Source: Rhodopirellula halodulae (GTDB taxonomy: Bacteria > Planctomycetota > Planctomycetia > Pirellulales > Pirellulaceae). From it: a stretch of DNA of 64,000 nt. A model generated the notes under the pieces. The model had not been told where the DNA came from and made no database searches. It worked only from the letters and a program-made list of their open reading frames with translations. The translations under genes and the position numbers were made by a program. Below are positions 18,633-30,880 of the stretch, in pieces. The stretch spans positions 62,001 to 126,000 of the forward strand of contig NZ_JAJKFV010000010.1 in the NCBI RefSeq assembly GCF_020966775.1. Reading direction: 5' to 3'. Numbering within the stretch: the stretch's first letter is position 1; each line of letters begins with the position of its first letter.

Positions 18633-19616
18633 TCAATCGCTTTGAAGTGTCGCGTGGATGTGATCCACCATCACTTCGACGCCGGGCCCCGGACGATCGA
18701 TCAACAAACTCACCATCTTGATACGAGAGAGATCAAGTTGTCTGTCGTTGGGGCCGTTGAGCATTTCGCTGGATGGAAACACGACGTGTTGCGGTTCGTT
18801 CGCTCGAAGTGTCACGTAGTGTTTGGCCACATCGTTGTGGTAGTCCTGGTGATTCTCGTCCATCACCTTCACGATGATTTCCCAAGTGCGATCGGGATCA
18901 GGAACCGGCGTTTTCAAACGGAGGACCAAGTCGAGTTCCAACGTGTCAACCGACGTCCAATCCGGGGCGACTTCCAACAACGTCATGGCCGGGTGCGGTG
19001 CGTCTTGAGGCAGCCAACGCAGAGCAAACTTGCCGTCGGTCACGTCCTCGGTGGTTTGCGAGCGGCGACAACGATTGAAGTGCCAACGCGTGATTTCCAT
19101 GCGTGTTTCGAAAGACGCAATCCTTGGAAACTCAGAATGAACGCGGAAACAATCGCGGATGACTTGAAGCGGGCCAATCCAACTGCTGGTCAGCAACAAG
19201 ACGCCCAGCAATTGGAGGGCTCGACGAGCCTTCGATGATTCGAGCCCACCAGCGATGAACCATGCCGCCGCGGCAATGATGCCCAGCCCGTTTGAGATGG
19301 CGTCGTGAACGGCGGCCGATCGACCAATCATGCCTTGGACCATTTCGACCAAAACACCCAGGGCAAACAACGATACGACCGTCAGAAGAATCCGGCGTCG
19401 CCATGGAAATGAGCCCGTGACCAACGGTCGCAGGGTTTGGAGCAACACCAACGTCAACAACGTCAGTCCCGCGAAAAGTGGGGCGTGTGCCATGTCGCCG
19501 ATCGCGCCCGGCATGCGTCCATGAAAGGGCATGGGGACAAACAGCCCGGTCAACGCCACCAGGAAACATCCAGGCAGCGCGAGCCAGATCAGTCGCGATG
19601 ATCGGCGTTCACTCAC
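18633..19616 (-). CDS. VanZ-like membrane protein
   Basis: A 327-residue protein with an N-terminal four- to five-helix membrane part (about 1-190) containing the VanZ-like landmarks DMAHAPLFAGLTLL and FALGVLVEMVQG...SAAVHDAISNGLG. The soluble C-terminal 140 residues look beta-rich and are not part of the usual VanZ core. Named VanZ proteins affect glycopeptide tolerance, but most family members have no known role. The start codon overlaps the stop of flgE by 1 base, so it would be expressed with the flagellar hook genes; whether it has a flagellar role is unknown. Confidence 0.82.
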   Translation of the reverse strand: MSERRSSRLIWLALPGCFLVALTGLFVPMPFHGRMPGAIGDMAHAPLFAGLTLLTLVLLQTLRPLVTGSFPWRRRILLTVVSLFALGVLVEMVQGMIGRSAAVHDAISNGLGIIAAAAWFIAGGLESSKARRALQLLGVLLLTSSWIGPLQVIRDCFRVHSEFPRIASFETRMEITRWHFNRCRRSQTTEDVTDGKFALRWLPQDAPHPAMTLLEVAPDWTSVDTLELDLVLRLKTPVPDPDRTWEIIVKVMDENHQDYHNDVAKHYVTLRANEPQHVVFPSSEMLNGPNDRQLDLSRIKMVSLLIDRPGPGVEVMVDHIHATLQSD

Positions 19617-22051
19617 TATCGTCGAAGGTTGAGAAGTTCGTCGATCAATTGCTGAGTGGTGGTGATCACTCGGCTGTTGCCCCGGTACTGGGTGCTGGCC
19701 AGAACGAGTTCCACCAAGTCTTTGCCGATGTCCGTGTTGGACAATTCCAACGCACCACCGATCACGGTTCCGATCCCGTTTTCACCGGGTTGGCCGGTGA
19801 CGGGCAGACCCGTGTTGACGCCTTCGGCATACAGGTTCAAACCGCGAGCTTCCAAACCAGCGGGGTTGGCGAAACGTGCCAACTGCAATTGGCCCAAGTC
19901 GCGAGAAATACCGTTGCTGAAAACGCCTCGCAGGGTTCCGTCTTCACCCACGATGAAGCTGTTGAGCACCCCGGGTTCACTACCGTCTTGTTGGGTGGCG
20001 GCCAGCGTGGCTTCTTCCGTTGCCAAACCAGACACCAGCGAAAAGTCCATCTCGAATTGCAACGGCGAGACGCTGGGGATGCCTTGCCGGTTGATCGAAA
20101 TGGTTTCTTCCGTGGCCGTCACGAAGTTGCCGTTTCCGTCGAACTGGATCAAGCCCGTTCCGACGGTGATGTCGGTGCTGCCGGGAACGCTGTTGTCAGG
20201 ACTGTCGGCGTACCAACGATAGATGGTGGCTTGGTCGGTGCGACTTTCCAGTGTCGCGGAAACCCGAACGTTGATGGGCACACCCAGCGAGTCATAAACG
20301 ACGAAGTCGCTGGAAGCACTTTGTCCGATGGCCTCTTGTTGGGTACCAAACGCCAAGTTGGGCGTGGTGACTTGACCGAATTCGTCTTCCAAACGGAAGG
20401 CCGACAGTTCGATGTCCACGGCGTTGGCTTCCCCATTATTGGAAACCAAGCGAATGCGGCCGTCTTGGATGTAGGCACCTGCCACCAAGTCGCCGGTTTC
20501 GCCTTCGATGTTGTTGTCCGAACGCGGGATGGGGTTGGCCGAGTCGACTTGCGATGTCTGGATGCCCGATGCGTCGGACAAGAAATCCAGCAAGTCCTGC
20601 ATGGTGGTCGTGTCGGTGATCTCCAGCTCTTTGGTGCCGAGCGTCCGTCCGCCTTTGCGTCCGGTGTAGCTCAGCGTGCCTTCGCTGAAGACGTTTTCGT
20701 AGGTGAGCCCGTCGCGTTTCAGCACGTCTGTCAGCAACGTGTTGGAGTTCACGGCGGGACCGTTCATGTCCAACAGTTGATTGGAGGGATCGGTCAGATC
20801 CGAGATGTCCGCGTCGGTGGCGGAGTCGGTGAAGGTGTCACCGGGGGCCACTTCGCCGACCAAGTAAAAGTTGTTTTGGTCACCCGCGAGGTTGCGATAG
20901 ATTCGGATGGAGTCGTACGCGGGAAAACCACCGCCGGCCGGCGGCGTGGGTGGCGTGGGGAAATCGCTGAGTGTGATGCGTCCGTCGACCACGCTCTTGG
21001 GACCCAAGAACGAACTGGGGCGGCTTTCCGGATCACCTGAGCTGTAATAGGTGATCATGTAGGTGTAGTTGCCCGTCAGGGTGTCTTCGTTCAGTGGGGT
21101 TCCCGACAGTGGCACCGAACCGTCGTCGTTGTAGGTGCCGCCCGCAGCCGCGGAAGCCAGGAACTCAAAGTCCGAACCATTGGGGCCGGTGCGATAGATG
21201 TTGACCGTCGGGTAATCACCGCCGGTGGGATCCGCCGGCAAGTTGCTGAAGTCGACATTGCCGTTTGCGCCCACGTTGAACGAACGAGCCGAGCTGGGCG
21301 CGCTTTCATTGCCACTGGCATCGACCAGAGAGAAACGATACTGGTACGTGCCGGCAGCGAGCGAACCTGCGCCGACCGTTCCGCTCACGGTAACCGAGTC
21401 AGCGATGGGTGCGGTTTCGATCGATACTCCGGTGGCGTCCGGTTGAGGAACTTGGCTGTCGCCCAGGTGCAGGCTTTCGATGACCTGAGCCGCCGTGGCC
21501 ACGTCGCCTTCCGGGGTCAATGTGCCCTCGAAAGAAACGTTCTCGGTCGCCTTGGCAACGGTCTTGGTTCCCAGGGGCACGGACAAGGGAACGAGTTCCG
21601 AAGTCTGCAATCGAAACTGCTCGTCGATGCCGTAACCCAACAAACGCTGACCGGTCGCGTTGACCAATTCCGCGTCACTGTTGAGTTTGAAAATCCCGTT
21701 TCGGGTGTAAAGCTTCTCGCCGTCGGCAGCTTCGACTTGGAAGAACCCGTCGCCTTGGATGGCCAGGTCACTACTGCTGCTGCTGATTTCGATGGTGCCC
21801 TGGTTGTGGTTGGCCGCGATTTCAGCGACTTGAACACCCAGACCGATTTGTCGTGGGTTCGTACCACCGTTGTTGGCGGAAGGGCCGGCACCCAGCGATA
21901 GCGTTTGCAAAAACTGCGTGGCAAACACCGCGTCCGACGACTTGAACCCGACCGTTTGAGCGTTGGCCAGGTTGTTACCGATCACATCGATCTGTGTTTC
22001 AGCGGCACTCAGTCCGGTCAGGGCCGTCGTCAGTGCTGATTGAAGTCCCAT
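19616..22051 (-). CDS. flgE: Flagellar hook protein FlgE with a large inserted module
   Basis: FlgE polymerises into the hook universal joint. The N-terminus (MGLQSALTTALTGLSAAETQ, IGNNLANAQTVGFK) and the C-terminus (LELSNTDIGKDLVELVLAS, QYRGNSRVITTTQQLIDELL) are the conserved D0/D1 coiled-coil parts. The D2-type segment SSDFVVYDSLGVPINVRV is near 575. At 811 residues it is about twice the enteric hook protein; the excess includes residues about 215-420, a tandem pair of fibronectin-like units (GTYQYRFSLVDASGNESAPS and NYTYMITYYSSGDPESRPS, each followed by an IYR-type strand). It lies downstream of flgD and overlaps the VanZ-like gene by 1 base. Confidence 0.95.
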   Translation of the reverse strand: MGLQSALTTALTGLSAAETQIDVIGNNLANAQTVGFKSSDAVFATQFLQTLSLGAGPSANNGGTNPRQIGLGVQVAEIAANHNQGTIEISSSSSDLAIQGDGFFQVEAADGEKLYTRNGIFKLNSDAELVNATGQRLLGYGIDEQFRLQTSELVPLSVPLGTKTVAKATENVSFEGTLTPEGDVATAAQVIESLHLGDSQVPQPDATGVSIETAPIADSVTVSGTVGAGSLAAGTYQYRFSLVDASGNESAPSSARSFNVGANGNVDFSNLPADPTGGDYPTVNIYRTGPNGSDFEFLASAAAGGTYNDDGSVPLSGTPLNEDTLTGNYTYMITYYSSGDPESRPSSFLGPKSVVDGRITLSDFPTPPTPPAGGGFPAYDSIRIYRNLAGDQNNFYLVGEVAPGDTFTDSATDADISDLTDPSNQLLDMNGPAVNSNTLLTDVLKRDGLTYENVFSEGTLSYTGRKGGRTLGTKELEITDTTTMQDLLDFLSDASGIQTSQVDSANPIPRSDNNIEGETGDLVAGAYIQDGRIRLVSNNGEANAVDIELSAFRLEDEFGQVTTPNLAFGTQQEAIGQSASSDFVVYDSLGVPINVRVSATLESRTDQATIYRWYADSPDNSVPGSTDITVGTGLIQFDGNGNFVTATEETISINRQGIPSVSPLQFEMDFSLVSGLATEEATLAATQQDGSEPGVLNSFIVGEDGTLRGVFSNGISRDLGQLQLARFANPAGLEARGLNLYAEGVNTGLPVTGQPGENGIGTVIGGALELSNTDIGKDLVELVLASTQYRGNSRVITTTQQLIDELLNLRR

Positions 22052-22796: not shown

Positions 22797-24008
22797 ATGG
22801 AAGCCAAAAACGTCCGGCAGTCTGTTTCTGCACCCATCACACTTTGCAAGCAAATCGGGGTGTCGTGCGGTGTCTTTGCTTTGGTGGCTGTATTCGCTTT
22901 GCAAGCAAATGCCGCCAACTATCGAACTCGGAACTTCATCATCGAAGCCCCCTCGGCTCAGCTTGCGAAAGCCGTGGGAGACGCAGCCGAAAAATACCGT
23001 GATGACTTGGCCAGCTATTGGACCGGCAGCAAATTGCCGCCTTGGCCAACGCCCTGCCCCGTTCGCGTGGTGGCGGGAAATTTGCCAGCTCAGGGAGTGA
23101 CCACGTACAACCCCGCGCCCGTTCGTGATTTCCAAATGGAAGTCGTCGGAACGCCCGAGCGAATTCTCGATAGCGTGCTGCCTCACGAAGTCACCCACAC
23201 GGTCTTGGCGACGCACTTCGGTCGGCCGCTTCCACGTTGGGCGGATGAGGGCATTTGCACGACCGTGGAACACGATTCAGAAAAAGCCAAACACGAAGCC
23301 AAGCTTCGCGAGTTTTTGTCGACCCGACGTGGCATCGCGATGAACCGTTTGTTCTTACTGACGGAGTATCCTTCGGATGTGTTGCCGATGTACGCCCAAG
23401 GCTACTCGGTTTGTCGTTTCTTGATCGAACAACAAGGCCCCGAGACGTTCATTCAGTTTCTCGGCGACTACATGCAACGTGGCTCGTGGACCAAACACGT
23501 GCAACAGCATTACGGATATGATTCGCTGGCCGAGCTTCAAGAGTACTGGTTGGCATGGGTGGAAGCGGGCAGCGGCCCCGTCGCACAATTCGCGAAACGC
23601 TCACCTCGTGGACAGGCAGGCAACACACAGATCGCTTTGGCAAGTGCCACCGGTCCTTCGAACGCACCGGCGCCAACCAATCCAAATCGCGAAACGCGGG
23701 TGGCTCCCGCAACGGCACTCGCGGCCGCCAGCGAGTCGTCGTCTTGGTACGTGCGGCAACTCAATCGAAAAGACGCCACATCCGACGTCGAGACCATTCC
23801 CGCGGGGCCTGGTTCGTCGATGACCAACGCGACGGCTCAAGCTGCATCCGCAGCCATGGCCGCGGAGCATGGTCCAAGCGTTCGAACCTCAACGTCCGAA
23901 TCCTCGCCACGTTGGATGCCGCCTTCGGTCAAATCCAGCGGTCGCTATTCCGTTTCCACGCCGCAGGGTGAGTCCAGCGGATCTTGGGGCGGGAGTCGAT
24001 GGCGATGA
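22797..24008 (+). CDS. Secreted MA-clan (gluzincin-like) metallopeptidase
   Basis: A predicted exported zinc peptidase of 403 residues. A hydrophobic signal region (about 20-40, ending ALQANA) precedes a compact catalytic domain. The zinc motif is HEVTH (130-134) and the third ligand is probably E151 in RWADEG, the gluzincin arrangement seen in planctomycete peptidase-MA proteins. A helical region with YAQGYSVCRFLIEQQG follows (about 200-250), then a Ser/Ala-rich tail of about 130 residues that looks disordered. It lies 44 bp before the GAF-HlyD gene and on the same strand, so it may be the first gene of that cluster. The substrate is unknown. Confidence 0.85.
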   Translation: MEAKNVRQSVSAPITLCKQIGVSCGVFALVAVFALQANAANYRTRNFIIEAPSAQLAKAVGDAAEKYRDDLASYWTGSKLPPWPTPCPVRVVAGNLPAQGVTTYNPAPVRDFQMEVVGTPERILDSVLPHEVTHTVLATHFGRPLPRWADEGICTTVEHDSEKAKHEAKLREFLSTRRGIAMNRLFLLTEYPSDVLPMYAQGYSVCRFLIEQQGPETFIQFLGDYMQRGSWTKHVQQHYGYDSLAELQEYWLAWVEAGSGPVAQFAKRSPRGQAGNTQIALASATGPSNAPAPTNPNRETRVAPATALAAASESSSWYVRQLNRKDATSDVETIPAGPGSSMTNATAQAASAAMAAEHGPSVRTSTSESSPRWMPPSVKSSGRYSVSTPQGESSGSWGGSRWR

Positions 24009-24052: not shown

Positions 24053-26191
24053 ATGACAGCCGCCGCGTCGAGTGAACCGTTTGTCTTTGCACCTGGTGGG
24101 CCCGCAACCGCGGAAACCACCGGGACCGGTCCACATACGCGCGGCCCGTTCACCGGCGGCTCTTCTGCCCATCTGGTGGATCAGGCTCGGCAAGAGATCA
24201 CGCAGATTGTCCGCGAGGTCGCCGCCGCATCGCATCAACCAAGACAACGCGCCGAGTACCTTCGCTTCCTGGCGGATCGAGTGCTGCGAGCCATGGCCGG
24301 GCATGGCGTTGTGATTTGGACCCGACCCGACCAAGAAAGCTCAAGTGCGAACGACTACTCGGCGGAATGTCGATTGGGACGTGTCACTGATGTCGCCTTG
24401 GTGGACGAAGCCGTTGCGGTTCATCAGTGTTTGCTCAGCGAAGTGGCTGACGATGGTGTCCCGGTGGTGGTGCCGTCCACTCCCGACGCGCGGCAACCAG
24501 ACGTTCCGGCCAATCCTTTGCCCTATCCGGCGGCCATCGTTCCGATTCGGATTGATCCGTCGTCAAAGTTGCCTGAAGGATTGATCGAAGTTTTCCTCGA
24601 AGATGGTGGGACCGCGGCGAGCCAACGAGGAAGCCTTCGTTTCCTGGCTCAGATGGCGGACTTGGCTGGCGAATTTCTTCGCACGCGACAGTTGCGAAAG
24701 CTTACACAACTGTTGGATGCCACCAATCGCGTTGATGCGGCGGTTGAACGACTGCACCGAATGACCTCCACTCGCTCCATTCAAACCGCTTGGGTGGATA
24801 TGACGGCCGAGTTGTTGCAACTGGATCGAGTTGCCCTGTGTCAAATGGATGGTGGGAAGCCAAAGTTGGTGGCGGTGAGTCATGTGGACCGGATTGATCA
24901 ACATGGTGACGCCGCAGAGAAGATTCGACACGCCGCACAGAAAGACTTGCAGCCTCAACATGGTGTTTGGATGGCCGAACGTGTCTCTGATGCGGGCCAA
25001 GAAGACGAAAGCACGTCGCAACCAGAGGGGCCTTCGTTTGTGGTGGCGTTGCATCCTCATTCGCAGTGGCGATTGATCGGGTATCGAACCTCTTCGCAAA
25101 CCGCTTTGTCAGACGAGGTTTACTGGGGAACGCTCTGTCGCTTGCTGTCCGGAGGCTCTTCCGCCTGGACGGCGGCTCGCCGAGTGGAATCCATTCCCGG
25201 TGGCCGTTGGTTCTCGCGTTTGCTCGTTCAGCCAGAATGGAACGAACCTTCTGCTGGCATGCATGCTGGCGGAACGCCATCACAATCTGCGCCAAATACT
25301 CCGCGAATGCTTCGTGTCAGTCGGATCCGAAGGTTGCTGTTTGGGGGAGTGATCGCGATCTTGGCCAGCGTATTGCTGTGTCTGCCCGTGCCAATGCTGG
25401 TTCCGGTTTCCGGCGTCATTCGACCGCTGAAATTGGACACCTATCACGCGGCAAGCGACGCGGTGGTGAAGGCACTGCACGTTCAGCACGGACAAACCGT
25501 GCAGCAAGGTGATTTGCTGGCCACTCTTGTCTCGACCGACTTGCAAGAACAAGAAACCCAATTGCTGGGCCGCCGAGCTGTTCTGATAAGGCAACGTGAG
25601 CAATTCAATCAAACGTTGATGGCAAATTCGGCGTCCGCGGATGAAACCCGTGCGAGTGACGGTCGCGAATTGGATGAAGAGATTGATTCGATTCATCAGC
25701 AACTGGAGTTGATTCGGCAATCGAAAGAACAGTTGGTCGTGCGTGCGGAAAACTCAGGACGCGTCGATGCGTGGCGATTGAATGAACGTTTGGCCAATCG
25801 GCCACTGCGTCGCGGAGATCCTCTGCTCAGCATTATTGCGGAAAAGACCGACTGGGTCGTGGATGCCCGGATACCTCAAACCCGGTTGCAGTCGGTCGAT
25901 TCGGCACTGCAAACCGATCGGCTAACCGCCGAAGTGGGCACGACTTGGTCGAGCCAGTTGGAGATGACCGGGACCGCCCAGCGTTTCGGGCCGATTGTTC
26001 CGGATCCGAGCGACGGAACGCCTTCCGTGGTGATGAGGCTGGCGTTGGATCAGCCTCCCGAATTGGGAGACCAACCGCTTTCGGAGGTGCCGGCTCGCGT
26101 GACGCTGCACTGCGGTCAAACACCGCTCGGTTGGATGTTGGTGCAGGACTTCGTTCATTGGTGCCAAGTGCAATGGGGAGGCTACTTCTGA
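24053..26191 (+). CDS. GAF-like sensor fused to HlyD-type membrane fusion (adaptor) domain
   Basis: A 712-residue two-part protein. Residues about 30-400 are cytoplasmic and hold one or two GAF-like regions (for example LLDATNRVDAAVERLHRM into TAELLQLDRVALCQMDGG). One TM helix (about 428-450) follows, then a periplasmic barrel-sandwich hybrid (SGVIRPLKLDTYHAASDAVVKALHVQ, GQTVQQGDLLATL), a coiled-coil hairpin (about 495-565) and the returning lipoyl half. HlyD-type adaptors usually bridge an inner-membrane pump to an outer-membrane channel, but no pump is encoded nearby. The stop shares one base with the next start (TGATG), implying coupled translation. A GAF sensor on an adaptor is unusual. 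Confidence 0.82.
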   Translation: MTAAASSEPFVFAPGGPATAETTGTGPHTRGPFTGGSSAHLVDQARQEITQIVREVAAASHQPRQRAEYLRFLADRVLRAMAGHGVVIWTRPDQESSSANDYSAECRLGRVTDVALVDEAVAVHQCLLSEVADDGVPVVVPSTPDARQPDVPANPLPYPAAIVPIRIDPSSKLPEGLIEVFLEDGGTAASQRGSLRFLAQMADLAGEFLRTRQLRKLTQLLDATNRVDAAVERLHRMTSTRSIQTAWVDMTAELLQLDRVALCQMDGGKPKLVAVSHVDRIDQHGDAAEKIRHAAQKDLQPQHGVWMAERVSDAGQEDESTSQPEGPSFVVALHPHSQWRLIGYRTSSQTALSDEVYWGTLCRLLSGGSSAWTAARRVESIPGGRWFSRLLVQPEWNEPSAGMHAGGTPSQSAPNTPRMLRVSRIRRLLFGGVIAILASVLLCLPVPMLVPVSGVIRPLKLDTYHAASDAVVKALHVQHGQTVQQGDLLATLVSTDLQEQETQLLGRRAVLIRQREQFNQTLMANSASADETRASDGRELDEEIDSIHQQLELIRQSKEQLVVRAENSGRVDAWRLNERLANRPLRRGDPLLSIIAEKTDWVVDARIPQTRLQSVDSALQTDRLTAEVGTTWSSQLEMTGTAQRFGPIVPDPSDGTPSVVMRLALDQPPELGDQPLSEVPARVTLHCGQTPLGWMLVQDFVHWCQVQWGGYF

Positions 26192-27285
26192 TGTCTCAGC
26201 GAAACACAATGCGACTCGGTTTGCGAAAATACCATGGCGATTCACTCATACTCGTTGTCGCGTTGGCTTGCGTCGCGACCGCCTGCATCGCGATCGAGCA
26301 GAAGGTGGTCGCGGACGAAGCCTCGTCCGGCAAAGTCGAAACCAACGTGGTGGAAGTCGACGACGTGGTGGTCGATTTTCGCGAGCAGGTGGATGTGCCG
26401 GCGCTGCAAAGCGGCGCGGTGGACCAGCTAAACGTGCAGATGAATCAGTTCGTTCGTCGCGGAGAAGTCTTGGGGCGTTTGGACGCTCAGTCGCTGACGA
26501 TTCGCCGACGAGCGGCTTTATTGCGTTTCGAATCGGCCAAGTTAATCACGGAAGATGACTTGGAATTGAAGTTCGCTCAAACGTCATTGGAAGAAGCGGA
26601 AGCGGAACTCGAAGCCAGTCAAGCCACCGAGCAGAAATACAGTGGCACGGTGGCTGTGAACCAACTTCGCCGAATGCGATTGGCGGTGGAACGTGCCAAG
26701 CTAGAGGTCACCCGAACGAAGAAACACATTCGGCAGGCCGAGATTGACACACAACTCGCAGCCGCGGATCTGGCGTTGATTGATGATGAACTATCTCAGT
26801 TGGCATGTGTCAGTCCGTTGGATGGTGTGGTTCTGACCGTGCACCAACAACCCGGGGAATGGATCGCGAAAGGGCAGCCTTGGGTGACCATCGCAAGTGT
26901 TGGCGAATTGACGCTGCACGCGTTGGTGAATGCGGACGAGCTTTCACCGGCAACGTGCATTGGTTTGCCGGTCACCGTGCATTGGGGAAGCGAATCCGAT
27001 GGCACCGCAAAGACGCTGACCGGGAAAGTCACTTCGGTGGATCCGAAGCGTTTGCCAGGCAACCGATTTCGCTTGCATGCCGAGGTGGTGAACCGACGCC
27101 AAGGTCACGATGGCACTGTGCCACCGGAATCAGCCATCGTTCCGGGATCAGGACACCGCGTGGATCATCATTGGCAATTGCTACCCGGCGCGAAAGTCTC
27201 GATGCGCATTTATCGTTCGCGAGCCGAGATGGCTTGGCGATTGAATTGGGATGAGTCGTCATCAAGCCGCGGAATGATGCGATGA
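26191..27285 (+). CDS. HlyD-family periplasmic adaptor protein
   Basis: A 364-residue single-pass adaptor. The N-terminal hydrophobic segment (about 17-33) is a signal anchor. The first lipoyl half is VPALQSGAVDQLNVQMNQFV with RRGEVLGRLD, followed by a long coiled-coil hairpin (about 100-190, rich in Glu, Ala, Arg) and the second lipoyl half LACVSPLDGVVLTVHQQPGEW. A beta-barrel domain (about 240-330) ends it. ATG 26191 is chosen because it overlaps the previous stop and starts just before the anchor. It overlaps the following M50 gene by 4 bp. It probably forms a complex with the other two HlyD-domain proteins (inference). Confidence 0.87.
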   Translation: MSQRNTMRLGLRKYHGDSLILVVALACVATACIAIEQKVVADEASSGKVETNVVEVDDVVVDFREQVDVPALQSGAVDQLNVQMNQFVRRGEVLGRLDAQSLTIRRRAALLRFESAKLITEDDLELKFAQTSLEEAEAELEASQATEQKYSGTVAVNQLRRMRLAVERAKLEVTRTKKHIRQAEIDTQLAAADLALIDDELSQLACVSPLDGVVLTVHQQPGEWIAKGQPWVTIASVGELTLHALVNADELSPATCIGLPVTVHWGSESDGTAKTLTGKVTSVDPKRLPGNRFRLHAEVVNRRQGHDGTVPPESAIVPGSGHRVDHHWQLLPGAKVSMRIYRSRAEMAWRLNWDESSSSRGMMR

Positions 27286-29411
27286 ATCGCGATGGTCACG
27301 CAGCAACGTTGACGGGAACGCCTCGTGAATCCACGGCGGGTTCGCTGAGGCGGGATCTGCGTGTCATGCCGTTGCCGGATGGACGTGGGTTGGTTGTTTT
27401 AGATGACATCGCCGGGCGATTTGCCAGGACGTCACGGCGAGTGTGGCAAAAACTGACCGCCGCCGAACGAGGCGAGCGGTCGGATGTGGCCGCCAATTCC
27501 GATGCCATGTGGAACGAAGCTCGTGCGGCGGGATGGTTGCGACGATCCGCGAGTTCATCGCGGCGGGTTGCCTCGGAGGCTCGGTTCTCGTTGCTCTCTT
27601 TCCGGACGCCGATCGGTTCCATGGATCCCTTTGCCAAACGATTGGCTCCGATCAGTGGCATCGTGTTTTCACCCATGGCAATGATGTTGTGGTGTTGGGT
27701 CATCATCGTGTCTGTCGTGTTTTGGATGGTCCGTTGGCAGCAATGGGTGGGGGCGGTTCCTGCGTTGCAGACGTATTTATTGGAACTGAAGCCGGTCGCC
27801 ATGGCACTGACGTTTGTGTTCACAAAAGCGGCTCACGAGTTGGGGCACGCTGTGTTGTGCCGTCGACTGGGATCGCGTTGTGGCGTTTTGGGGATTTGGT
27901 GGCTGTGTTTCATGCCTTGCCCGTATGTCGATGTGACGGATGTTTGGCGCCAACCGACGTCGGCACGCCGTGCGGCCGTGATGGCGGCGGGGATTTGGGT
28001 TGAGTGGTTGATTGCCGTGGTCGCGTTGTGGGTTTGGTGGTTAGCACCATCCCATGATGTGAAGATGACCGCGATGAATGTGGTGTTGGTTTGTGGAGTG
28101 AGCACGATCCTCTTCAATGCCAATCCGTTGATGCGATACGACGGCTACTTCATCCTGAGTGATTTGTTGGACACAGCGAATCTGCGAGGCGAGGCTCGTC
28201 GGGCTTGGCGTCTGTGTTTGATGTCACCGATGGCTCGATGGTGGCGTCTTGGCATGCGTACTTGGTCGATGACGTTGTATCACCTTTCGTCAAAGATCTA
28301 TCGCGTCTCGATCACCTTGGCCATTGCGGGGTGGTTGTTGAGCTGGGCAGATGGTTGGGGGCTGTGGCGGATTATGTTCGCGGGGATGGTGATCGCCTCT
28401 CTCGGTGTTGCGACGCGTTGGTTTGGCAGCCTGCGTCATTTGCTGCGGGGAACGAATGATTGGAATGGGATTGCACGCGGCCGACGGTTTTGTTTGCTGG
28501 CTTTGGTCATCGCGTTCGTGGTGGGATGTTTGACCATTCCGACACCTCGCTATCGTCACGTTGAGGGAACCTTGCGTGCGAAGGAGACTTCCGCGGTTTA
28601 TTTGCCCAGAACAGGCAGGATCGAATCGGTTGAAATTCGAGTTGGCGAATTCGTCGAAGAAGGTCAAACGCTCGCGAAAGTGACTGACCTGGATCTCGAG
28701 CGTCAATTGGCGGCCACCGTTGGCAAACAACGCGTGCTGCAGCGGCGGGTGGAAGCGACACGTTTGGTGTCTCTCAAGACGGGGCAGTCGCCAGCGGATT
28801 GGGACGCGTTGGAAACGGCGACGACATCTTTGGAAACGACACGAAACGAATTGCAAGAACGGCGATCGGAGTTGATCCGAACCAGTCCTCATGCCGGAAT
28901 TGTTTTGCGACCGACACAAGTAAATCCGACAAAGCCCGCCGAGAGCGATTGGCGGATGAGTGACCCGTTTGCGTTGAGCCCTCACGAGGGGCAACCGGCA
29001 GACGATTCGCGGCCTTGGTGCCGGATTGCTCGTTCGTCCGCGTTGGAGGTGGTGCTGCCGATCGACGCCGAAGATCGTCAATGGATTGGACCCGATGCAA
29101 AAGTTTGTTTGACGCTTTCGTCCATGCCAGGCGAGAAGGTGGAGACTCGCGTGCGTGATGTTTCTCCCGTGCAAACTGAATTGGTAGGTGACAAATCGCA
29201 TATGACGCAGTCTCAGGTAGGACGTGCTCCACACGGTGAAGGCCCACAGAACTATGAGGCGGTTTGCGATCTGTCGTTCGTGAATTCGCCGGGGGCCACT
29301 GATCGAGAACTCGACCGCTTGCTACGCTGGGACGGAGCCAGTTGCCAAGCGGTTCTACGTTTGCCTTCGCGTCCCCTTTGGAAAGATTTGAAACGTTCAT
29401 TGGAGCGTTGA
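27282..29411 (+). CDS. M50 (site-2 type) membrane protease fused to a lipoyl/HlyD domain
   Basis: A 709-residue membrane protein with an intact zinc protease core: HELGH (185-189) within a TM helix and NPLMRYDGY (281-289), whose Asp is the usual third ligand. About eight more hydrophobic segments run to residue 420. After the membrane part there is a barrel-sandwich hybrid (VEGTLRAKETSAVYLPRTGR, GEFVEEGQTLAKVTDLDLE, about 425-470), a short coiled coil and the second lipoyl half. The first 80 residues (PLPDGRGLVVLDDIAGRFAR) weakly resemble PqqD-like peptide-binding domains. Related M50 proteins occur in peptide-maturation loci; here substrate and export route are unknown. Confidence 0.86.
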   Translation: MNRDGHAATLTGTPRESTAGSLRRDLRVMPLPDGRGLVVLDDIAGRFARTSRRVWQKLTAAERGERSDVAANSDAMWNEARAAGWLRRSASSSRRVASEARFSLLSFRTPIGSMDPFAKRLAPISGIVFSPMAMMLWCWVIIVSVVFWMVRWQQWVGAVPALQTYLLELKPVAMALTFVFTKAAHELGHAVLCRRLGSRCGVLGIWWLCFMPCPYVDVTDVWRQPTSARRAAVMAAGIWVEWLIAVVALWVWWLAPSHDVKMTAMNVVLVCGVSTILFNANPLMRYDGYFILSDLLDTANLRGEARRAWRLCLMSPMARWWRLGMRTWSMTLYHLSSKIYRVSITLAIAGWLLSWADGWGLWRIMFAGMVIASLGVATRWFGSLRHLLRGTNDWNGIARGRRFCLLALVIAFVVGCLTIPTPRYRHVEGTLRAKETSAVYLPRTGRIESVEIRVGEFVEEGQTLAKVTDLDLERQLAATVGKQRVLQRRVEATRLVSLKTGQSPADWDALETATTSLETTRNELQERRSELIRTSPHAGIVLRPTQVNPTKPAESDWRMSDPFALSPHEGQPADDSRPWCRIARSSALEVVLPIDAEDRQWIGPDAKVCLTLSSMPGEKVETRVRDVSPVQTELVGDKSHMTQSQVGRAPHGEGPQNYEAVCDLSFVNSPGATDRELDRLLRWDGASCQAVLRLPSRPLWKDLKRSLER

Positions 29412-29515
29412 GTGGGGATCTGATTCGTCCCGCGTCCATCTCAAGTGTTTCCGTCTTGTCACGTCCACCATTGTCCAAAGATTCCAATCCCATTTGGCCA
29501 TCAGCTGAACAGCGG

Positions 29516-30103
29516 ATGAAGTTGCCGGTGGTCAATGGTTTGCATCCGAGTTTGCAACCAGAGGACGAACTGCTGAAGCATTGTCAATTGCGAACGCAGG
29601 CTCGAAGTGGCCCGGGGGGACAACATCGCAATCGAACCGCATCGGGGGCGTTCCTCACCTACGACACTCGGCATCCGGAGGTCGGCCCCATCACGGCGGA
29701 AGCAACCGAGCAGAGGCAACAGGCACGCAACCGTTCGACCGCACTGACGCGATTGAGGTATTTGTTGGCGGTGACCCTCCGCACGTCCTCGCCGGAGTAT
29801 CCTTCCAATTCAACGGAATCCGGGAAGATGGATCCGACAACGGAATGCCACGTGCTGGAGAGCGAATTGCGAATGCGGTTTCGCGGCACCGCTTTGAAAC
29901 TGAATGACCAAAACGCGGATAAGCCAGCGTTGTTGGCCTTGGTGCTCAATGATCTTTGGACCGCCGGGGGCCAACCCAGTTTGATTGCGGAGTGTTGGAA
30001 GGTCTCGACCACCAAACTTGTGAACTTGGTACGCGATCATCCTCCGGCGTTTCAATTGGTCAATCGCATTCGGCAACATCACTCTCGGCCCCCGCTTCGA
30101 TAG
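29516..30103 (+). CDS. Peptide chain release factor-like protein (GGQ domain)
   Basis: A 195-residue protein with the release-factor catalytic signature SGPGGQHRNR (31-40), where the GGQ glutamine positions water for peptidyl-tRNA hydrolysis. It lacks the codon-reading domains of RF1 and RF2, so it may act in ribosome rescue like ArfB, although the long C-terminal helix region (about 80-195) differs from the ArfB tail. The start at ATG 29516 gives a compact protein; the frame is open upstream to 29342, but that part overlaps the M50 gene and has no family look. Six bp separate it from the rhomboid gene. Confidence 0.85.
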   Translation: MKLPVVNGLHPSLQPEDELLKHCQLRTQARSGPGGQHRNRTASGAFLTYDTRHPEVGPITAEATEQRQQARNRSTALTRLRYLLAVTLRTSSPEYPSNSTESGKMDPTTECHVLESELRMRFRGTALKLNDQNADKPALLALVLNDLWTAGGQPSLIAECWKVSTTKLVNLVRDHPPAFQLVNRIRQHHSRPPLR

Positions 30104-30109
30104 AACAAC

Positions 30110-30880
30110 ATGATTCCAATCCGCGATGACATCCCGAGTCGTACGACACCGCTTGTGAACTATTTGGTGATCGCGTTGTGCGCGGTTGCATTTCTGGCTC
30201 AGCAAGCTTCGTCCGACAACAGCGAAAGCATCATTTCAGGGTTTGCGATGGTGCCGCTGCGATTGACGGATCCATCGGCCACGCCGGTGATGCAGCAGCG
30301 TGTTCCGGTGCGAACACCTCGAGGGGTGGAGGTGATGGAAGTTCGCCAAGAGATCGGGCCGCCCGCAGTTCCCGCCTGGATGACATTGATCACTTGCATG
30401 TTCCTGCATGGCGGTTGGATGCATTTTCTCGGCAACATGTGGTTCTTGTATATCTTTGGCGACAACGTGGAAGATCGCTTGGGCCATTTGGGGTTTGCGC
30501 TGCTGTATCTGGGGACAGGAGTGCTGGCCGGTCTCGCACATTTATTGAGCGACCCGGGGAGCCCGGTGCCGACGCTGGGAGCCAGCGGTGCGATTGCGGG
30601 AGTGATGGGAGCGTACGCGTTGCTCTATCCGCATGCACGGGTCTTGGCCGTTCTGCCGTTGATGTTTGTGTTTCCAACCTTCGTGTTGCCCGGGCCGGTG
30701 TTTCTGGGGATCTGGTTTGTCATTCAGTTGGTCAACAGTCTTGGATCGCTGGCGGGTGGCGAGGCCGGCGGAGTTGCGTGGTGGGCTCACGCGGGCGGAT
30801 TCATCGCCGGAGCCTTGGCTGCGTTGGTGATCGGACGTTCTCCTCTCGGGCACGAAGCGGTTCACGAACGTCGCTTTTGA
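30110..30880 (+). CDS. Rhomboid intramembrane serine protease
   Basis: A 256-residue membrane protease with the catalytic serine in GASGAIAG (S159) and the catalytic histidine in WWAHAGGF (H227). The HFLGNMWFLYIFGDNVED segment (105-122) supplies the oxyanion-side residues. A loop of about 45 residues between the first and second helices (about 45-90) is longer than in GlpG. Rhomboids cut single-pass membrane proteins near their helix ends. It follows the GGQ gene at 6 bp and is the third protease type in the 22.8-30.9 kb cluster, after the MA and M50 enzymes. Confidence 0.95.
   Translation: MIPIRDDIPSRTTPLVNYLVIALCAVAFLAQQASSDNSESIISGFAMVPLRLTDPSATPVMQQRVPVRTPRGVEVMEVRQEIGPPAVPAWMTLITCMFLHGGWMHFLGNMWFLYIFGDNVEDRLGHLGFALLYLGTGVLAGLAHLLSDPGSPVPTLGASGAIAGVMGAYALLYPHARVLAVLPLMFVFPTFVLPGPVFLGIWFVIQLVNSLGSLAGGEAGGVAWWAHAGGFIAGALAALVIGRSPLGHEAVHERRF

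Follow-up and report, generated by a model that had tools for sequence, protein, structure and literature searches.

A pump-less GAF-HlyD/HlyD/M50-HlyD gene cluster of Rhodopirellula halodulae and its possible link to LEPR-XLL giant proteins

The window analyzed here is a stretch of 64,000 nucleotides of the Rhodopirellula halodulae genome (RefSeq assembly GCF_020966775.1, contig NZ_JAJKFV010000010.1, positions 62,001 to 126,000), and our subject is a cluster of three genes in it, which encode a GAF-HlyD protein, a HlyD-type adaptor and a fusion of an M50 site-2 protease with a HlyD domain (M50-HlyD). This cluster is a real conserved module of a known, uncharacterized kind, and the window copy is a diverged member of it without SecA. 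New are findings which suggest that giant proteins with the LEPR-XLL signature are substrates of the module, and that its M50 component is apparently catalytically intact and resembles a RiPP recognition element (RRE; RiPP, ribosomally synthesized and post-translationally modified peptide) in one domain. Whether the module represents an export system for LEPR-XLL giant proteins that lacks an ATP-binding cassette (ABC) transporter, with M50-HlyD reading and cutting the leader, we consider evenly poised for and against.

A first-pass annotation of the window, made from the sequence alone, had put the cluster forward as an undescribed system in which the M50 enzyme replaces the pump. Both the locus and that idea were already present in Kamneva, Poudel and Ward (2015; PMC4452313). 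That paper describes loci of HlyD, GAF-HlyD and M50 genes together with a secondary SecA_DEAD gene and with no ABC transporter, proposes the SecA_DEAD and M50 proteins as stand-ins for the ABC transporter, mentions cases of unlinked SecA, names an operon of Methylobacterium extorquens AM1, and calls the broader biological role of the locus "completely unknown". Its main text does not mention LEPR (0 occurrences), and its account of the locus names no substrate. A search by title and abstract start and in open-access PMC text found no paper tying LEPR-XLL or DUF4347 proteins to the locus, and no follow-up to the 2015 paper was among the matches listed.

Results

The Gene Cluster and Its Adaptor Proteins

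The three genes are present as first annotated, with overlaps of 1 base (TGATG) between the first and the second and of 4 bases between the second and the third. The open frame of the 364-aa adaptor extends upstream to 25945, and it is the ATG at 26191 that yields the 1-base overlap. Pfam detects HlyD-type domains in all three proteins and Peptidase_M50 in the third. Genes and domains are as follows (window coordinates; AF2, AlphaFold2; pLDDT and pTM, its predicted local distance difference test and template modeling scores; TM, transmembrane):

24053..26191, + strand: GAF-GAF-TM-HlyD protein, 712 aa (Pfam HlyD_3 E 6.6e-12; AF2 mean pLDDT 84.1, pTM 0.54)
24248..24595, + strand: first GAF-like domain, residues 66-181 (AF2 topology only)
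24770..25192, + strand: second GAF-like domain, residues 240-380 (AF2; Pfam GAF_3 E 0.004, below cut-off)
26191..27285, + strand: HlyD-type periplasmic adaptor with N-terminal hydrophobic segment, 364 aa (Pfam HlyD_3 E 9.7e-14)
27282..29411, + strand: RRE-like/M50/HlyD fusion protein, 709 aa (Pfam M50 E 1.4e-07, HlyD_D23 E 8.3e-08; AF2 mean pLDDT 84.8, pTM 0.76)
27360..27584, + strand: PqqD/RRE-like domain, residues 27-101 (AF2; family profile A5 against PqqD 3g2b E 0.0095, TfuB1 6jx3 E 0.024)
27834..27848, + strand: HELGH zinc motif, residues 185-189 (HExxH in 112/112 M50-HlyD rows)
28134..28148, + strand: RYDGY, residues 285-289, with distal zinc ligand D287 (pattern in 110/112 M50-HlyD rows)
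28539..29381, + strand: HlyD part of the M50 protein, residues 420-700 (Pfam; Foldseek MexA/MacA)

The model of the first protein consists of two GAF-like domains, a TM helix (residues 419-443) and an adaptor part with lipoyl, short-hairpin and barrel elements, so that this protein is predicted to comprise a cytoplasmic sensor-like part, a single TM segment and a periplasmic adaptor. The GAF part that had been assigned to it is borne out by this topology and by relatives, since GAF PF01590 is detected in 44 of 60 aligned sequences (alignment A4); the window protein itself scores below the cut-off and is not among the 44. MacA and MexA were among the Foldseek matches listed for this model. Since the listed matches are adaptor proteins for both this model and that of the M50 protein, the GAF, RRE and M50 calls are based on profiles and topology.

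A scan of the trio and of neighboring window open reading frames (ORFs) between 18597 and 34807 revealed no pump or TolC gene, and no ABC transporter was found among the window ORFs scanned, in agreement with the cluster having been described as pump-less.

The M50-HlyD Protein

The AF2 model of the M50-HlyD protein shows an N-terminal domain of the order strand-strand-strand-helix-helix-helix, a helical core carrying HELGH and RYDGY, and an adaptor part. The profile of its family (A5) matches, apart from PqqD and TfuB1, the archaeal site-2 protease 3b4r (E 0.0044) and many adaptors. We take PqqD and TfuB1, which have the RRE fold, to be binders of leader peptides. Pfam PqqD matches three of the nine members of alignment A2; PqqD is not among the Foldseek matches listed for the window model.

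HExxH and a distal D in a membrane-helix core, the hallmarks of an M50 site-2 protease, are both found in the window protein, as the HELGH and RYDGY that had first been noted. Conservation of these residues is complete: the two rows that fall outside the RYDGY pattern retain the distal D as RADAYY and RYDAYY, which brings it to 112/112. The nearest named NCBIfam M50 models are those of RiPP-maturation proteases, matched by 9/9 M50-HlyD members scanned, with window scores of 108.1 bits for daptide_HExxH (NF041824; cut-off 300) and of 25.7 bits for the epipeptide model (cut-off 225). In a paralogue of the same genome (L010), the match to the daptide model also spans the N-terminal domain. Taken together, the invariant HExxH and the likeness to RiPP proteases argue, at the level of sequence, for a working protease rather than for a pore alone.

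In a tree of 112 M50 proteins, the window protein and that of Rhodopirellula maiorica, which has the same trio, form a pair (36-38% identity) on a long isolated branch; as the tree is the product of a short search, the position of the window protein beyond this pair is unsure.

Conservation of the Module

A search for the trio in other planctomycetes had been suggested at the outset, and the outcome is positive. The best 80 loci of a scan of named genomes are, by record title, all planctomycete except one titled only "bacterium". Of these, 48 extend 4.5 kb or more upstream of the M50 gene, and in 28 of the 48, GAF-HlyD, HlyD and M50-HlyD follow each other in this order on one strand; the remaining classes are GAF-HlyD only (10/48), HlyD only (6/48) and neither (4/48). 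Because the trio is also repeated in the R. halodulae genome itself (L010), its arrangement represents more than chance. M50-HlyD was detected at E 1e-40 or better in 67 of 294 genomes of the phylum, in a scan that scored only three candidates per genome. Upon rescoring 20 negative genomes with up to 54 candidates, no full-length M50-HlyD was found in them; G178 gave a partial M50-region match.

We compared 37 M50 loci from 17 genomes (six from R. halodulae and 31 of 33 other places, two of G069 being left out) with 20 control regions taken at a shift of 200-300 kb; 13 of the 17 genomes contributed controls. The genome scan shows an M50 gene in L155 and L156, where the ORF selection leaves it out, and L135 and L163 are short regions. 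Close relatives are included among the genomes, and hence the locus counts and the co-occurrence counts below are not independent samples. A further HlyD adaptor is encoded at 32/37 M50 loci versus 1/20 controls, an outer-membrane efflux protein (OEP, TolC-type) at 9/37 versus 0/20, and a short SecA-like protein at 10/37 versus 0/20. The first-pass annotation had held that consistent flanking of the trio by a dedicated ABC or RND (resistance-nodulation-division) pump would speak against it. Such flanking by ABC genes is not what we find, because an ABC ATPase-like gene occurs in one of the 37 M50 loci (7 kb from the M50 gene) versus 4/20 controls, and within 9 kb in 7/112 M50 rows; this count, made with a single-sequence profile, may miss some genes and leaves RND and MFS (major facilitator superfamily) pumps aside.

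The 6.6-Mb genome of R. halodulae contains six M50-HlyD genes, and their surroundings differ. Apart from the window copy (contig C10) and the repeated trio on C2 (L010), they are located as follows. On C12 (L011), GAF-HlyD and M50 genes lie about 2 kb away from a 1,700-aa ORF with LESRRVL. On C14 (L012), a DUF4347/LEPR-XLL giant gene is opposite OEP, HlyD, HlyD and M50-HlyD genes, and on C4 (L013) a DUF4347 gene is opposite OEP, SecA-like, HlyD, HlyD and M50-HlyD genes. On C29 (L014), two giant genes are accompanied by M50-HlyD, HlyD, HlyD and a divergent OEP gene; the second giant gene (L014:2770-8724, 1,984 aa) has an acidic, T/E-rich start and no LEPR-type motif. Thus, an OEP gene is found at three of the six loci, a SecA-like gene at one and a large ORF with a LEPR-type motif at four, and two of the three DUF4347 places in the genome adjoin M50-HlyD genes. 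Because other loci of the genome carry OEP genes, the reported absence of a TolC-like gene applies to the window and not to the family, in which TolC-type and SecA-like genes occur at the frequencies given above. Unlinked OEP genes are present as well. LEPR-XLL (NF012209) places are found on C9, C14 and C33, those on C9 and C33 being on contigs without an M50-HlyD gene, and SecA_DEAD places on C4 (beside another M50), C9 (alone) and C11 (full length).

LEPR-XLL Proteins as Candidate Substrates

Several giant neighbors of M50-HlyD loci carry LEPR-XLL (NF012209) and/or DUF4347 (PF14252). The 13 inspected first comprise nine proteobacterial proteins (those of E. coli and Citrobacter being near-identical) and four of R. 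halodulae. At the N-terminus of 11 of them, a region with more K/R than D/E precedes a motif such as LEPRFLLSAD, LESRQLFDGA or LEDRVLLSG. A twelfth is the Alisedimentitalea giant gene (L198), where an in-frame LEPRLLLAAD is encoded shortly before the annotated start; in the thirteenth, the second giant gene on C29, the motif is missing from the first 170 residues. No Sec-signal-like hydrophobic stretch was seen in the first 75 residues of these 12 motif-bearing proteins (15-residue Kyte-Doolittle maximum of 1.75 or less, a rough measure, taken from the annotated start for Alisedimentitalea). Among six further large planctomycete neighbors, two have LEPRVVL, one has LESRQLL (G205, L137) and three have none, so that the motif is present in 15/19 large neighbors overall. 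It was found in 0/182 control ORFs.

A non-core ORF with a LEPR-type motif is present at 6/37 M50 loci versus 0/20 controls (7 versus 0 with a broader pattern); one chance match inside an M50 protein (L153) is excluded from the six. At the genome level, M50-HlyD is present in 26 of the 27 planctomycete genomes with LEPR-XLL (NF012209) and in 41 of the 267 without, both scans covering the same genome set as far as listed. Of 85 LEPR places, eight have an M50-HlyD gene no more than 15 kb away, where about 1.0 would be expected. The linked genes suggest giant LEPR-XLL proteins, and not small peptides, as the partners of the module.

As the counts within the phylum are confounded by shared ancestry, more independent support comes from proteobacterial loci. 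A tblastn search with the L012 M50 protein matched 80 plasmid records. Nine of the 11 proteobacterial regions opened (Pseudosulfitobacter, Thalassospira, Citrobacter, Mesorhizobium, Alisedimentitalea, Azospirillum, Methylosinus, Variovorax and E. coli) contain a giant gene together with genes for HlyD and M50-HlyD, the presence of SecA-like and TolC genes varying from locus to locus. The giant gene of Variovorax is 48.7 kb long. The Sinorhizobium region is unannotated there, and in Rhizobium the match is at the start of the record, such genes not being seen on the one side that is visible. The TolC-HlyD-HlyD-M50 stretch is matched by 24 of 5,426 complete E. coli genomes, in 22 over at least 80% of the stretch. 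At three alphaproteobacterial loci (L126, L128, L131), a small DUF3467 gene is located between the giant gene and the adaptors.

Secondary SecA Proteins

Secondary SecA genes, which were told apart from canonical ones by score and place and not by length alone, are no more than 6 kb away from an M50-HlyD gene in 10 of 25 cases; for canonical SecA the figure is 0/18. Open frames of 610-752 aa account for 23 of the 25, the other two being of 926 and 1,307 aa (739 and 678 aa in their sister-genome counterparts). Of 18 genomes selected because they have M50-HlyD, 14 encode a secondary SecA. None was seen in 20 genomes without M50-HlyD, where two cases are doubtful: G016 encodes a further SecA, 831 aa long, and the sole SecA of G021 is a 525-aa open frame with a canonical-like score. 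The secondary proteins scanned retain the DEAD, preprotein-binding and P-loop domains. In 10/10 of them, no match to the wing-and-scaffold domain was found; the full-length SecA scanned alongside does match.

Two SecA-like genes lie apart from M50-HlyD. That on C9 (L166:8557-10791, 744 aa, without a wing-and-scaffold match) groups with M50-linked planctomycete ones, and there is no M50-HlyD gene on its contig. In L164:7800-12153, a SecA-like gene adjoins a GAF-HlyD gene in a region with no M50, the only M50-HlyD gene found in that genome being elsewhere.

Genes Surrounding the Trio

One neighbor is shared with R. maiorica, where it has the same place downstream of the trio (52% identity); its role in the module is doubtful.

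29342..30103, + strand: RF-1-domain (ArfB-like) gene (Pfam RF-1 E 8.9e-10; 29342 is the frame start, the real start being probably further in)

It is followed by a rhomboid protease gene, the two spanning 29342-30880 (+). Directly upstream of the trio, there is a gene for a Peptidase_MA_2 protein (22797-24008, +), which has no BLAST match from the R. maiorica locus. Further upstream, on the opposite strand (19616-22051, -), a long flagellar hook-type protein of 811 aa with FlgE/FlgG-like ends is encoded.

Discussion

We propose that the trio may form the inner-membrane core of an ABC-less, type-I-like exporter. M50-HlyD would unite three parts: a PqqD/RRE-like domain in the cytoplasm, a metalloprotease core within the membrane, and an adaptor in the periplasm. 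The RRE-like domain would bind giant surface proteins by their N-terminal leader, which is of the LEPR-XLL type and mostly basic, and the M50 site would cleave this leader. The two other HlyD proteins could form the onward passage to a TolC-type channel. Power for the inner-membrane step may come from a short SecA-like ATPase, whether its gene is linked or not, and the GAF part would gate or regulate export. Because no LEPR gene, OEP or SecA adjoins the window trio, both its substrates, for which the LEPR-type proteins encoded on C9 and C33 are candidates, and its partners would have to be unlinked. In a wider form, to which we commit ourselves only tentatively, LEPR-XLL may serve as the N-terminal signal for a secretion system of its own, which lacks an ABC transporter and is shared by planctomycetes and proteobacteria, including some E. 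coli plasmids and islands. There, the RRE-like domain would read the leader and the M50 site would cut it, and a stripped-down SecA without wing-and-scaffold domain, or another motor, would export, by way of HlyD adaptors and TolC, proteins that reach about 16,000 residues in length; the window trio would be a deep-branching, unlinked copy of the inner-membrane core.

Several observations weigh against this proposal. At the window itself, no LEPR, giant, OEP or SecA gene was found beside the trio and no LEPR gene anywhere in the 64,000 nucleotides; the window M50-HlyD protein does not match Pfam PqqD, and because of its long branch its function may have drifted. Within the family, OEP and SecA are both absent from the region of 21/37 M50 loci, and the nearest of the ABC ATPase-like genes close to M50 genes is at 2.3 kb. 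The motif pattern was drawn after the sequences had been seen. Four of the 19 large neighbors lack the motif (the second one of C29, G121a, G291, which is cut at the locus edge, and G238), and the motif protein of G205 (L137) has a strongly hydrophobic segment near its start. In 41 of the 67 M50 genomes there is no LEPR match, the 24-position model being weak, and co-occurrence of LEPR and M50-HlyD within the phylum is confounded by phylogeny. The pore of the system is putative. Finally, the TolC-tip motif R-x3-L-x6-S/T, taken from PMC3391258, occurs in 15/71 small adaptors versus 16.1 in shuffles; as it is not enriched, we rejected it as support.

Three other explanations were considered. Following Kamneva et al. 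(2015), the M50 protein could be mainly a membrane pore and SecA_DEAD the motor, with proteolysis being incidental and the substrate unspecified. The gene set without an ABC transporter is the same, and the DEAD, preprotein-binding and P-loop domains kept by secondary SecA proteins suit a motor, but the invariant HExxH and distal D of all 112 rows speak for catalysis, the wing-and-scaffold domain gave no match in any secondary SecA scanned, and at 27/37 M50 loci there is no linked SecA; we consider this explanation unlikely. The first-pass annotation had favored a trio that processes and releases a small signaling peptide, or cuts an anti-sigma-like protein, with the GAF part as sensor. Proteases of daptides and epipeptides are indeed the closest NCBIfam models, a PqqD/RRE-like domain and a GAF part are present, and the window trio has no giant neighbor. 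Nevertheless, the scores are far below the model cut-offs and the genes linked in relatives encode giant proteins, TolC and SecA, all of which makes this quite unlikely. No support for the anti-sigma idea turned up, without a direct test of it. What stands of the complex first envisaged is a conserved pump-less module of adaptors and M50 protein, in which the GAF part may sense a ligand; the release of a peptide is what the linked giant genes tell against.

Alternatively, the trio could have split from giant-protein systems to become a housekeeping adaptor complex of the envelope, serving for instance in envelope stress sensing or in lipid or metabolite efflux via an unlinked pump. Loci of adaptors and M50 without OEP and SecA are common in Planctomycetota, and the window and R. 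maiorica copies are an isolated long-branch pair with a conserved RF-1-domain neighbor. On the other hand, their domain set and invariant active site are those of the giant-linked members, and no pump was found beside the trio. We give this explanation a similarly low probability. Export of LEPR-XLL proteins would give the locus family and the motif a concrete, testable role, and it names a candidate leader, a candidate protease and a candidate motor. If the proposal is correct, proteins that are among the largest in bacteria could undergo tripartite export without an ABC transporter, and an intramembrane protease would be a component of secretion.

Comparison With Known Systems

The locus of Kamneva et al. 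(2015) and the window cluster have in common that HlyD, GAF-HlyD and M50 proteins are encoded together without an ABC transporter. The former is found in planctomycetes and proteobacteria, with OEP in some, whereas the window copy has neither a linked SecA nor a linked OEP. LEPR-XLL (NF012209) and DUF4347 (PF14252) proteins, the substrates that we propose, are giant neighbors in relatives, none being found in the window. The DDxP proteins (PMC7730722), a type-I-linked family, were also looked at and are a different one. With the M50 proteases of RiPP pathways (NF041824 daptide_HExxH; NF058609 YydH/LiaK), M50-HlyD shares the M50 core; it differs in that the window protein scores far below the cut-offs and has a HlyD domain fused to it, and in that the neighbors in relatives are adaptors and giant proteins. 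The module is similar to type I secretion (HlyB-HlyD-TolC) in the HlyD adaptors of the trio and in the TolC-type channels and giant, surface-type neighbors of its relatives, but no ABC transporter is encoded in the cluster, and the signature shared by the giant neighbors of relatives is N-terminal.

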